Shown here: piece by piece, positions 41,247 through 45,340 of the stretch
How positions within the stretch are numbered: position 1 is the stretch's first letter
Layout of the letters: each line of letters begins with the position of its first letter
Source of the DNA: Enterococcus sp. DIV0212c
GTDB taxonomy: Bacteria; Bacillota; Bacilli; Lactobacillales; Enterococcaceae
Assembly: GCF_017377505.1 (NCBI RefSeq)
Contig: NZ_JAFREN010000007.1
Span: 1-64,000, forward strand
Reading direction: 5' to 3'
Length of the DNA: 64,000 nt
Notes under the pieces: generated by a model
The model's input: only the letters and a program-made list of their open reading frames with translations
What the model was told of the DNA's origin: nothing
Databases searched by the model: none
Program-made: the position numbers and the translations under genes

Positions 41247-43151
41247 TTAATCGTCTCTTTTTGCCTGTCTTTCTTGCATTTCTTTTCTTAATTTTTTGTG
41301 CGCTTTTTTTGACCCTCTTTCAAGATCTCTATTCCTCTTGCGGTCATGATAATGTTCAAATAAAGAATCTAGATCATAATTTGGCGGATATAGCTCTTTG
41401 GCGCTGCGATCTAATTTCAATTGCCGTTTATGAACTGTTATTTTTTCGTTGTCCACGTAAATTATCACATCATCTGTCATTTCTACGGACTCATATACCA
41501 AACCAATTTTCTTTTTTTCTGTCCAAAATACACGGTCACCTTTTTCATAATTTGGAAAAACCGTTTGTTCTTTTTGTTTTCTGACCTTTTGCAGTGAGTC
41601 TGCTTTTTTAGTTGAATAGTTGCGGTCATGTAAATAGTTTTGCGCGAGTTTAACCACTTGTTTATCTAAGTTCATCTTATTGGCAATCCAAAACGCATTA
41701 CTCTCACCAGTTTCGCCTAAAATCAATTGATATTTCGGCATGAGGTTTTCTGAATCAAACGCCATCGCTGCGGTTAGAAAATCTTCATGTTGTTCGGAAA
41801 ATCGTTTGATTTCGCCATAGTGAGTCGTTGTAATAAGGATGCTCCCTTTTTTATAAAAAGCTTCCATGATTGCAATTGCTAAAGCGGCTCCTTCGTTTGG
41901 CTCTGTCCCACTACCGATTTCATCTAATAAAATCAAGCTGTTTTGCTTGGTTTTAGCAAGGATTTCAGAAATATTTTGCATATGACCAGAAAAAGTACTT
42001 AATGCATTTTCGATACTTTGCTGATCACCGATATCAACGAAAATCTGATCAAAAATAGCAACGTTTGTGCCAGCATCAGCGATAATTTGTACACCAATCA
42101 TCGTTTGCAAGGAAATCAATCCGACGGTTTTCAGTACGACTGTTTTTCCTCCAGCATTCGGTCCAGTAATCGTCAAACCTCGGTATTCTTTTCCTAATGA
42201 CACATTCAAAGGAACTGCTGCTTCACCCAGAAGTGTATGCTTTACGTTCACAAATTGAATGATTCCCTCTTGATTGATTTCAGGTTCGATACCATTAATT
42301 TCTCTACTGTATTTCGCTTTGGCAAAAATCATGTCATATTGCGCGATTACTTCTATATTTGAGTGAATTGCTATCATTTGTTCCGCAATCAAACCAGTCA
42401 ATGTCGATAAAATTTGGTAAACTTCTGCTACTTCTTCCATTTTCAGCTGATATAATTTATCATTCAACTTCGTTATCGCTGCAGGCTCAATAAAAACTGT
42501 CGTTCCTTTAGATGATGCATCCACAACCGTTCCTGAAATTTGGTTTTTGTACGTTGCTTTGATCGGTACCGTGAAACGATCATTTTTCTTCACAATGATT
42601 GCTTCTTGAATTTTAGGTTTATTTTGCGTATTTCTAAGAAATGATTGGAGTTTCATTTCAATTTCTTTTTCGCATTCTTGAATGGCTCTACGAATTTTAC
42701 GTAACTCTCGGCTAGCATCATTTTCCACTTGATTGTTACGAATTACATGATAGATTTCGTCCTCAATAGTTGAAAATAGTTGTAGCGATTCGCTGTATCT
42801 AGCTAAAAATGGTGCAATAAAGTTATTTTTTTGCATAAAACTTTGGATCAATCGGCAACTTCTAAGAAAATCTGCATAGCTGACTAACTCACTTGGTTCT
42901 AAAATAAAGCCTTTTTCCACTTGACTCGTCAGATGTTCAATGTTGTTTAAGCCCATAAATGGAACATGCAGATTGGCCATAAGCAACGCTTTTGCTTCTG
43001 AAGTTTCTTGCAGGCGTTTTTTGACTACCTCTATGCGACTACTTGGTTCTAATACTTGGATTCTTGCTTTTCCGTAAGAACTAATTGCATAGGTCATCAA
43101 TTTTTCTTTAATTGTATTGAATTGGGTTTTATTATACGTTTCTTGATTCAT
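41247..43151 (-). CDS. MutS2-like ATPase lacking the Smr domain
   Basis: DNA- or ribosome-acting ATPase of the MutS2 family, 634 residues against about 780 for full MutS2. The core and clamp region (1-300, with KNDRFTVPIKATYK and SSKGTTVFIEP) and the ABC-type ATPase are intact: Walker A GPNAGGKT at 330-337, Walker B LILLDEIGSGTEPNEG with Asp410/Glu411, and TTTHYGE. After residue about 520 there is a KOW-like segment (KGDRVFWTEKKKIGLV) and a basic tail, but no Smr nuclease motifs. GAAGGAG precedes the ATG. A 325-nt attenuator-like leader lies upstream. Full MutS2 with Smr splits or rescues collided ribosomes in B. subtilis; a related role is inferred. Confidence 0.9.
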   Translation of the reverse strand: MNQETYNKTQFNTIKEKLMTYAISSYGKARIQVLEPSSRIEVVKKRLQETSEAKALLMANLHVPFMGLNNIEHLTSQVEKGFILEPSELVSYADFLRSCRLIQSFMQKNNFIAPFLARYSESLQLFSTIEDEIYHVIRNNQVENDASRELRKIRRAIQECEKEIEMKLQSFLRNTQNKPKIQEAIIVKKNDRFTVPIKATYKNQISGTVVDASSKGTTVFIEPAAITKLNDKLYQLKMEEVAEVYQILSTLTGLIAEQMIAIHSNIEVIAQYDMIFAKAKYSREINGIEPEINQEGIIQFVNVKHTLLGEAAVPLNVSLGKEYRGLTITGPNAGGKTVVLKTVGLISLQTMIGVQIIADAGTNVAIFDQIFVDIGDQQSIENALSTFSGHMQNISEILAKTKQNSLILLDEIGSGTEPNEGAALAIAIMEAFYKKGSILITTTHYGEIKRFSEQHEDFLTAAMAFDSENLMPKYQLILGETGESNAFWIANKMNLDKQVVKLAQNYLHDRNYSTKKADSLQKVRKQKEQTVFPNYEKGDRVFWTEKKKIGLVYESVEMTDDVIIYVDNEKITVHKRQLKLDRSAKELYPPNYDLDSLFEHYHDRKRNRDLERGSKKAHKKLRKEMQERQAKRDD

Positions 43152-43260
43152 GTTGTATCTCCTTCTTTTTTCAGAGATACCTATCTTCTTTTGAATAGGT
43201 CAAAGAGTTTCCTTTTCTGCTTGTGATCTATTTTATTGTTCGAGTGAAAATACAAAAAAG

Positions 43261-43283
43261 AGACGAAGATTTCCTTCATCCCT
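43261..43283 (-). terminator. Attenuator terminator in the mutS2-like leader
   Basis: GATGAAG pairs with CTTCGTC (one wobble), extended by G-U/G-C/A-U pairs to about 11 bp, and the minus strand continues CTCTTTTTTG. It lies after the mutS2-like promoter and before the gene, and is also the first terminator after the glycogen operon. Confidence 0.75.
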
Positions 43284-43421
43284 CACTAATCAATAAATAA
43301 AGATAGATATACAGCAGTCTATCGGATATTTTTTATGAGTTAAGATAGGTATCAAACATAGGTATGCTAAAGAAGCCATCTAAAAATGGTTGTTTATTCT
43401 TCAGCTATTCATTTCCTTAGG

Positions 43422-43439
43422 TTAGATACTTACACTCAC
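43422..43439 (-). CDS. Putative five-residue leader peptide MSVSI
   Basis: GTG AGT GTA AGT ATC TAA begins five nucleotides after AGAGGTG, a fair ribosome binding site. The codons themselves form the 5' strand of the closing stem of the folded leader element. A ribosome on this frame would prevent that stem. Too short for homology support. Confidence 0.4.
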   Translation of the reverse strand: MSVSI

Positions 43440-43484
43440 AAAAACACCTCTATGGCTTTCTTTGACTATTCATTTCTCGCTAAA

Positions 43485-43513
43485 AGTATACCGCAGTTTT
43501 TTTGGTTGGTCAA
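43485..43513 (-). promoter_or_regulatory. Promoter of the MutS2-like gene
   Basis: TTGACC (43508-43513) and TATACT (43485-43490) are separated by exactly 17 nt on the minus strand, only 10 nt beyond the stop codon of the glycogen-operon GH13 gene. Confidence 0.8.
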
Positions 43514-43522
43514 TAAAAGAAG

Positions 43523-45340
43523 TTACAGCTTCCCAGAAATAAAACAACAGTCATAAGCTGCAATTTCTAATTCATCTAAAATCGTTTCGATTTTTTCATC
43601 AGTCAACGGACAACTTTTAGTAAAGCTGAAATCAGCAACATTGATTTTTTTTGCACAGTTGTTTGGGTTTAATACATATAGTGCATAGTTACTTGAATCA
43701 TAGCGCAAGATTCCCAATAATTCTTCCGTATAAAAAAGAATAAACGCTCCATATTTTAATACTTCTGTTTTCTTGCGAACCTTGATCCAATGTCTAAAGC
43801 CTTTTTCCATTGTTTGATCTTTGTTATCCCACGGAAAATACTTTCGATTTTCAGGGTCCTTTCCTCCTGTTAACCCAGCTTCATCGCCATAATACACACA
43901 AGGAATTCCAGGTAACACAGTCAGTAGAGAAAACGCACTTAACGCTTTTGTTTTATTCCCGTCCATCATTGTTAATAAACGTTCCGTATCGTGAGTTCCT
44001 AAATTATTAAGGTTGTTATAAAAAATGTCAGTAGGATAATTTTCTTCTAATGTCGTTATATTTTTAGCCGCTTTTTCAGGTGTCATTTCTCCTCTAAGCA
44101 ACGCCAAAATCGTCGTGCGAAAAGGGTAATTCATCACACCATGTAAACTATCGCCAAGGATATACTGCCGTCGTTCATCATAGGCTATTTTATTTGATGC
44201 ATCTTCCCAAACTTCTCCCAGTAAAATTTTGTCAGAATACTGATTTAGATTTTGACGAATCCCTTTGATAAAAAAATCGGGTAGTTCATCAGCAACATCT
44301 AAACGCCAGCCATCAATTCCAAAACGATTCCATTTTGCCAATACACTGTCTGATTCTCCATAAATAAACGCTTGAAACAGACGATTTTTTTTGTTGATTT
44401 CCGGCAAATCATCAAATCCCCACCAAGATTCATAAGTCTTCGGATAATCAGTAAAGGTAAACCAAGGATAATAAGGACTTTCTGGATCTCTATAGGCCCC
44501 CGTTTTTTCTCCATAACTGCCATCATAATTAAAGTACATACTATTTTTCCCCACATGATTAAACACGCCATCTAAAATCACATGCATATCATTTTCATGT
44601 AACAAATCTACAAGTGCCCTAAATTCAGTTTCATCACCCAACATGCCATCGATTGTTAGATAATTCGCCGTATCATAACGATGATTGCTAACCGATTCAA
44701 AAATAGGATTCAAATAAATAGCGGTCACACCCAGCTCTTTTAGATATGGAATTTTTTCGATGATTCCTTTAAAATTTCCCCCTTGAAAATCCCAACGGAC
44801 GATGCTGCCCGTCTCATCTTTGATATACATTGGCTCATCAGTATGTCTGCCATAAATAAATGAATTTTTCTTTGGATGATCGATTAGATTATGTGCATTA
44901 CCATTATGAAAACGATCTGGAAATATTTGATAAAAAACCGCTTCTCGATACCATTTAGGCGCATGATCTGCTTGAGAAAAACAAGTAATTTGATAAGGTA
45001 CAACTGAATATTCGCTTTCATAAAGTTGACCTTCCCCACCAAGCTCTTTCGTTGCTCCGTAGAAAAAGGAATCCTTTTTTTGATGACCTACAAAATAATA
45101 AAAATAAAGTCCTTTTCCTTGATCAAATACGTAAGAACATTGGTAATTACCTGGTGCATCACTTTCCATTTTTATATAATCACTTTTTTGACCACTATTT
45201 TCTTTATGAATCACAAAATAAACATCCTCGATCTCATTGCTTTGAATAAAAATTGAAAACTTCATTTGTCCGTTTTGTTCAATTGCTCCAAAAGGATCTT
45301 TATGTTGTTTTAGCCATGGATTGTAATAAATAGTTGTCAT
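43523..45340 (-). CDS. GH13 neopullulanase/cyclomaltodextrinase family alpha-glycosidase
   Basis: Intracellular glycoside hydrolase (605 aa, no signal peptide) acting on alpha-glucans or maltodextrins. An N-terminal beta-sandwich (about 1-120, CBM34-like) precedes the GH13 barrel. Conserved regions are DGVFNH (257-262), GWRLDVADE with nucleophile Asp348, LLGEVWED with acid/base Glu376, and GTHDTERL with Asp451. It is the last gene of the glycogen operon, 16 nt after glgA, so its likely job is trimming or debranching stored glycogen or imported dextrins. AGGTG precedes the ATG. Confidence 0.92.
   Translation of the reverse strand: MTTIYYNPWLKQHKDPFGAIEQNGQMKFSIFIQSNEIEDVYFVIHKENSGQKSDYIKMESDAPGNYQCSYVFDQGKGLYFYYFVGHQKKDSFFYGATKELGGEGQLYESEYSVVPYQITCFSQADHAPKWYREAVFYQIFPDRFHNGNAHNLIDHPKKNSFIYGRHTDEPMYIKDETGSIVRWDFQGGNFKGIIEKIPYLKELGVTAIYLNPIFESVSNHRYDTANYLTIDGMLGDETEFRALVDLLHENDMHVILDGVFNHVGKNSMYFNYDGSYGEKTGAYRDPESPYYPWFTFTDYPKTYESWWGFDDLPEINKKNRLFQAFIYGESDSVLAKWNRFGIDGWRLDVADELPDFFIKGIRQNLNQYSDKILLGEVWEDASNKIAYDERRQYILGDSLHGVMNYPFRTTILALLRGEMTPEKAAKNITTLEENYPTDIFYNNLNNLGTHDTERLLTMMDGNKTKALSAFSLLTVLPGIPCVYYGDEAGLTGGKDPENRKYFPWDNKDQTMEKGFRHWIKVRKKTEVLKYGAFILFYTEELLGILRYDSSNYALYVLNPNNCAKKINVADFSFTKSCPLTDEKIETILDELEIAAYDCCFISGKL

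Follow-up and report, generated by a model that had tools for sequence, protein, structure and literature searches.

The leader of the Bacillus subtilis ABC-F gene vmlR contains a short upstream open reading frame (uORF) within an anti-antiterminator stem, a pause motif, an intrinsic terminator, and a hairpin that sequesters the Shine–Dalgarno (SD) sequence of the gene until it is opened by an alternative pairing (PMC9226507). Very short conserved uORFs, encoding MR[I/M], MAGN and MK[L/Q], precede cplR, lsaA and vmlR2, which likewise encode ribosome-acting ATPases (PMC10201436), and the Listeria hflXr gene, encoding a homologue of a ribosome-splitting factor, lies behind leader-ORF attenuation (PMC6310831). 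The MutS2 (RqcU) protein of B. subtilis comprises core, clamp and ATPase domains with intact Walker motifs, and a KOW-like domain (PMC10897456), and the suspicion that ribosome splitters exist beyond MutS2 has been raised for the same organism (PMC11633108). Here, a leader with the vmlR type of arrangement, the opening of its SD hairpin being predicted, was examined in Enterococcus sp. DIV0212c, where it precedes a gene encoding a MutS2-like ATPase with the B. subtilis MutS2 domains listed above. The window, meaning the whole stretch of DNA analysed, is 64,000 nucleotides in length (contig NZ_JAFREN010000007.1, positions 1 to 64,000).

The leader is probably a ribosome-sensing switch of this MutS2 paralogue, which lacks the C-terminal Smr domain. 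Sequence and conservation support this reading through a promoter, an SD-led frame of 5 to 9 codons, a stem formed between the frame and an element designated R5, a terminator, and an element designated R6 that is predicted either to close the SD of the gene or, with helix P1 formed, to pair with R5. The features are as follows.

43485..43513, minus strand: promoter TTGACC-17-TATACT (TTGACC 43513-43508, 17 nt spacer, TATACT 43490-43485)
43459..43472, minus strand: 5' strand of P1, UGAAUAGUCAAAGA, with its partner at 43206-43192 (minimum free energy fold, own-versus-swapped test, two-sided changes)
43450-43445, minus strand: SD of the leader frame, GAGGTG
43422..43439, minus strand: leader frame GTG AGT GTA AGT ATC TAA (MSVSI)
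43330..43444, minus strand: SL1, the resting stem-loop, with R5 and AACUCAUAAAAA paired with the uORF and its flank
43405-43397 (R2) and 43374-43366 (R3), minus strand: inner hairpin of SL1, with TTCTTT (a TTNTTT motif) inside R3
43344..43353, minus strand: R5, GATACCTATC, partner either the uORF or R6
43258..43284, minus strand: intrinsic terminator hairpin, followed by a U-run to about 43253
43192..43206, minus strand: 3' strand of P1, UCUUUGACCUAUUCA
43176..43185, minus strand: R6, GATAGGTATC, partner either R5 (a pseudoknot with P1) or the SD of the gene
43181-43174, minus strand: GGTATCTC, through which R6 closes the SD of the MutS2-like gene
43155..43166, minus strand: SD of the MutS2-like gene, AGAAGGAGA, its GAGATAC closed by R6 at rest
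41247..43151, minus strand: gene for the MutS2-like Smr-less ATPase, 634 aa

The SD and the GTG AGT GTA AGT ATC TAA codons named in the preliminary description are present. Of 162 loci that could be assessed, 160 (with 147 distinct leaders) have a short SD-led frame beginning Met-Ser ahead of the MutS2-like gene, as judged with a scoring list that requires Ser2 and was tuned after the sequences had been seen. The frame-bearing loci span Enterococcaceae, Bacillaceae, Paenibacillus and Clostridia. A fairer control is a simple uORF criterion, not tuned to the 3' end yet also demanding Ser2, which recognised 142 of the 147 leaders compared with 9 of 1470 shuffles, and none of seven enterococcal regions upstream of canonical mutS2. 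A strict uORF pattern gave one match each in 37 of 105 Enterococcaceae genomes (reversed control, 0), every one of them 700 nt or less upstream of a MutS2-like gene when positions were compared by eye, and two further strict patterns, run on 398 sampled genomes of the class, gave 2 and 1 matches, each of them ahead of a MutS2-like gene. At this strictness, therefore, the leader is confined to this gene. Plasmids yielded no DNA match to the leader, and a protein search of them returned 85 records, every one below 60% identity.

Loci were taken from named genomes (78), from genus matches and from Enterococcaceae matches, some species being represented twice from two genome sources. The MutS2-like gene was found at a minimum of 52% identity in 21 of 22 genomes of the genus, in two of them in pieces, and in 85 of 105 Enterococcaceae genomes. 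Among 164 upstream regions two were set aside, L073 for lying at a contig end and L096 for belonging to the 3' fragment of a split gene; these, and the two loci counted as without the frame, L064 and L067, are outside the scored set. L064 and L067 are both from Anaeromonas, where a longer frame of 19 aa is present instead about 160 nt before the gene (MFNTNYTNMLSVGVRRLNK in L064), with SVGV and then a stretch rich in Arg; this may reflect a change to a different drug context. In E. ureilyticus and E. termitis (L012 with L096 and L104; L013 with L097 and L103) the gene matches in two pieces, being split or frameshifted, and the leader is intact. Stop codons fall inside the MutS2-like match in L087, L119 and several Enterococcaceae genomes, some of which may be end-of-match artefacts and others decaying copies.

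Start codons among the 147 leaders are GTG (85), ATG (61) and TTG (1), and Ser2 is encoded by AGT (112), AGC (3), TCG (25), TCT (4), TCA (2) or TCC (1). Codon 4 specifies 12 different amino acids and codons 5-7 vary between lineages. The encoded peptides in Enterococcaceae are MSVSI (the window type), MSVVI (the avium group) and MSVxGI (most others). Elsewhere they are MSAVVSK in Lederbergia, Siminovitchia, Sporosarcina and others, MSVVGSK in Paenibacillus, MSGVGIN or MSVVGIN in Peribacillus, Metabacillus and others, MSVVVSK and MSGVFSK in Clostridia, and MSAVAAN in Aerococcus. The short SD-led uORF is kept as a frame across relatives, and is putatively translated.

The leader of the window and those of 16 Enterococcus relatives have a resting fold in which R5 and AACUCAUAAAAA pair with the frame and its flank. 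The uORF is thereby placed inside a stem, one that would come apart under a stalled ribosome, and R6 closes the SD of the gene; the probability that the core of this SD is unpaired is at most 0.04. The folded element with codons in its closing stem, as given in the preliminary description, was thereby recovered. The full window leader folds at −84.2 kcal/mol (z = −3.76), with none of 100 shuffles as good, and its terminated form has a z of −2.76, with 1 of 200 shuffles as good. Pairing in the SD hairpin and in the main uORF:R5 helices is 93-100% across the 17 Enterococcus leaders. In the alternative state, R5 and R6, which are exactly complementary in the window, in agreement with the complementarity reported earlier, would form a helix of 10-12 bp that frees the SD of the gene. 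When the alternative state was scored as a whole (R5:R6, P1, inner hairpins and terminator) in the same 17 leaders, 96.6% of cells were paired, falling to 38-48% if slid by 1-3 columns, and 8 pairs were changed on both sides compared with a shuffled mean of 3.7 (0 of 500 shuffles as high); in P1, C-G is exchanged for U-A (5 sequences with each, and 6 unpaired).

P1 pairs the 5' end of the RNA with the stretch just 5' of R6. An earlier test of P1 with RNAduplex and long segments proved loose (50 of 147 at 5%), and a contiguous-helix test, with approximate stacking energies, was used instead on 84 representatives obtained by clustering 146 of the 147 leaders (L157 was dropped). The sequence of P1 differs by lineage with its complementarity kept: a leader's own pairs beat 95% of those swapped between lineages in 52 of the 84 representatives and 99% in 29, the window having a rank of 0.000. 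As P1 encloses R5 but not R6, its helix and R5:R6 together constitute a pseudoknot, predicted to be long-range and to carry compensatory changes between lineages. R5:R6 was better than 95% of shuffles in 55 of 84 representatives. Anchors for R5 and R6 fitted 44 of the 147 leaders (103 did not fit), and in these 435 of 440 cells are standard; there is a two-sided change between groups at the pair of R5 position 8, where the anchors permit A or G against T, C or A, the pair being A-U in 27, G-C in 15, G-U in 2 and never A-C. A joint test of P1, R5:R6 and the position of R6 beyond P1, limited to the four largest groups (136 leaders), was passed by 21 of 21 MSAVVSK-type and 10 of 14 avium-type leaders.

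The 634-aa protein has a MutS2 core, clamp and ATPase with intact Walker motifs (about residues 1-510), a KOW-like barrel after the ATPase domain (about residues 540-582) and a conserved helical basic tail (about residues 584-634). The KOW assignment rests on predicted folds, profile comparison for KOW having given no significant match. Pfam scans detected no C-terminal Smr domain, and TIGR01069 was matched only to position 534 of 790. In place of Smr (window 41250-41402, minus strand) there is a family-specific C-terminal motif, ELYPxxYDLxxLFxxYxxRKxxxDxERGSKKAxKK, with no Pfam match. The protein is 36% identical to B. subtilis MutS2 (7qv3) over 464 aligned residues, and a canonical MutS2 encoded elsewhere in the same genome is 35% identical to it over residues 7-529. 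By analogy, the gene product is probably an inducible ribosome splitter, standing to MutS2 as HflXr does to HflX.

Several observations weigh against the switch as described. Among the 17 Enterococcus leaders, changes in the SD hairpin and in the main uORF:R5 helices are all one-sided, a sign that these pairings are preserved, not that they covary (the coding content of the frame may itself restrict change), and R5:R6 varies within these leaders by one-sided G-U changes only. Only in 29 of the 84 representatives did the uORF:R5 pairing outperform 95% of shuffles, and in 8 of the 84 both it and R5:R6 did so with overlapping R5. The joint test was passed by 25 of 69 other Enterococcaceae-type leaders and by 3 of 32 of the MSGVGIN type, the latter count indicating another layout. 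Folding without pseudoknots and with an imposed ribosome left the SD closed (core unpaired 0.05 or less; R5:R6 0.02 or less); the opening of the SD hairpin, for which complementarity provides an alternative pairing, was not reproduced, and the switch is accordingly deduced from complementarity and conservation. In addition, secondary-structure folding with imposed ribosome footprints, and competitor-helix tests, revealed no general antiterminator, and the Z of the protein's KOW match is equalled by those of other KOW and Tudor barrels.

MSGVGIN-type leaders (L014, L024, L040, L044 and relatives, from Peribacillus, Cytobacillus, Psychrobacillus and others) mostly showed no P1 in the tests, and have a second GC-rich hairpin (GCCCGC...GCGGGC) before the gene instead.

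In the proposed sequence of events, RNA polymerase would first pause close to the TTNTTT motif that immediately precedes R5, and a ribosome would meanwhile load on the frame. Upon normal completion by the ribosome, the frame:R5 stem would form and most transcripts would stop at the terminator, the SD being closed in the few that pass it. If instead a ribosome-binding drug, or some other defect in translation, were to delay or arrest the ribosome over the first codons, R5 would remain free to pair with R6 in transcripts that extend past the terminator, and the SD would open. The product would then probably split or clear stalled or collided ribosomes, as MutS2 does. Induction by translation stress, the inducer and the function of the protein are all inferred here. 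Given the size of a ribosome's footprint, a ribosome on any early codon of so short a frame would be expected to cover the R5-pairing part. Ser2 is the penultimate residue when codon 3 is in the P site, and chloramphenicol and linezolid stall best with penultimate Ala, less so with Ser or Thr (PMC8987054). Initiation-stage drugs fit vmlR (PMC9226507), and might by analogy also fit the MutS2-like leader.

That control is exerted mainly by transcription attenuation, with a stalled ribosome freeing an antiterminator, polymerase passing the terminator and the SD switch being secondary, as in vmlR, is rather unlikely. A terminator-like hairpin is widespread, being present between uORF and gene in 78 of 84 representatives (4 of 40 shuffles; scan begun 40 nt past the uORF stop, threshold −7 kcal/mol or better), and in the window, where 43261-43283 had been proposed, it lies at 43284-43258 with a U-run; conservation of frame and stems in relatives, the lack of which the preliminary description had named as refuting its proposal, is borne out for the frame (160 of 162), P1 (52 of 84) and terminator alike. 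Attenuation also governs vmlR and hflXr (PMC9226507, PMC6310831), and a TTNTTT motif, the NusG-pause motif of vmlR (PMC9226507), is found in the 32 nt that lead up to R5 in 68 of 78 representatives, compared with 23% of shuffles (6 of the 84 had no R5 anchor and were left out), the last copy being 17-21 nt 5' of R5 in 49 of 71. This suggests polymerase pausing that times the switch, as in vmlR; the stretch is also paired in a conserved stem, for which the motif may have been kept instead. In 6 of 78 representatives an imposed stalled ribosome lowered the terminator probability by more than 0.2, which speaks for attenuation. Against it, the mean over the 78 hardly moved (0.934 without a ribosome, 0.909 and 0.901 with one stalled), and helices competing with either terminator arm between frame and terminator (7 of 78 and 5 of 78 at p ≤ 0.05) were not above chance. 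The earlier proposal that opening of the stem allows readthrough is therefore unsupported, in that folding did not show stem opening to abolish the terminator; its leader frame, stem, terminator and SD-freeing complementarity stand, and with them the likeness to vmlR. The conserved switch is better supported as R5:R6 versus the SD hairpin, acting on translation of readthrough mRNA, than as control of readthrough.

What the ribosome-sensing switch responds to is a related matter. Possibly, what the leader senses is a general defect of initiation or elongation, or else a stress other than antibiotics, such as loss of a rescue factor, any first-codon stall opening SL1: codon 4 and the peptide end vary widely, the frame is so short that any codon would be expected to serve, and translation defects also induce vmlR (PMC9226507). 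Retention of Ser2 across two codon families speaks for a role of the peptide at codons 2-3 and against such a general sensor, bearing in mind that the search itself required Ser2. An attenuator for starvation of serine, valine or isoleucine would likewise comprise a small frame and then a terminator, and is scarcely credible here, there being no single-codon run, 12 amino acids at codon 4, lineage-dependent codons 5-7, and a regulated gene that is not biosynthetic. Relatives are annotated as 'endonuclease MutS2' or 'DNA mismatch repair protein MutS2', and a DNA-repair or anti-recombination protein with a housekeeping attenuator unconnected to ribosome rescue is improbable in view of the missing Smr domain, the KOW-like barrel as in ribosome-bound MutS2, and the presence of the short frame in nearly all loci.

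With regard to the surrounding DNA, the TTGACC-17-TATACT promoter reported earlier as 10 nt after the glycogen operon was found 9 nt past an amylase-type gene that ends at 43523, and the neighbours upstream of the MutS2-like gene are presumably a glycogen cluster. In the window alone the match is not significant (2 found, 3.1 expected); a 9/12 promoter-like site lies 5' of the leader in 64 of 83 representatives of relatives (shuffles 13%), and the 5' start of the leader RNA is expected near 43478 from the position of the promoter. In the avium group (five loci, L008-L011 and L081) leader and gene occur together in a different neighbourhood, behind what we take to be the end of an asparagine-synthase-like gene rather than a glycogen cluster. 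Rfam covariance models (T-box, riboswitches, known leaders) gave no match in the window at the gathering threshold, only tRNA at that threshold in the loci of 12 relatives, and no match at E ≤ 1 in 5 loci.

The leader bears on the ribosome splitters suspected beyond MutS2 (PMC11633108), tying a MutS2 paralogue to translation stress through its regulation, beyond homology alone, and predicting that many Gram-positive genera possess an inducible factor for ribosome rescue or resistance, together with a conserved, testable RNA switch of uORF, pseudoknot and SD hairpin. More tentatively, there is a fair possibility that the Smr-less MutS2 family is, across the Bacillota, a dedicated drug-inducible ribosome splitter, related to MutS2 as HflXr is to HflX, induced via a uORF with an early stall at Ser2 (possibly of the phenicol/oxazolidinone type) and an SD-opening long-range pseudoknot, and acting as an intrinsic resistance or tolerance determinant; no such determinant is described in the open-licence papers searched. 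Among the matches listed from open-licence literature there was no paper on the Smr-less paralogue or its leader, and MutS2 combined with uORF gave no match; the available parts of PMC2902013, PMC10219788 and PMC11317155 contain nothing on the Smr-less paralogue, and from that of PMC3410868 the mutS2 of the E. faecium AsrR paper is not assignable to either paralogue.

Compared with the systems described at the outset, the leader differs from that of vmlR in its uORF, which encodes MSxxGI and related peptides rather than MIN, and in the unrelated gene that follows (PMC9226507), as well as in having the P1/R5:R6 pseudoknot and no recognisable antiterminator. The hflXr gene belongs to the HflX family, has a 14-aa RLR leader and is controlled at termination (PMC6310831), and cplR, lsaA and vmlR2 are ABC-F genes with other peptides (PMC10201436). 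With respect to MutS2/RqcU, the window paralogue lacks Smr, has a shorter link to the barrel and possesses its own ELYP...ERGSKKA tail, and the seven upstream regions of canonical enterococcal mutS2 are without the leader. As far as searches of the open-licence literature go, the design is known from vmlR, cplR and hflXr, and the regulated gene, the peptide family and the form of the pseudoknot are new.
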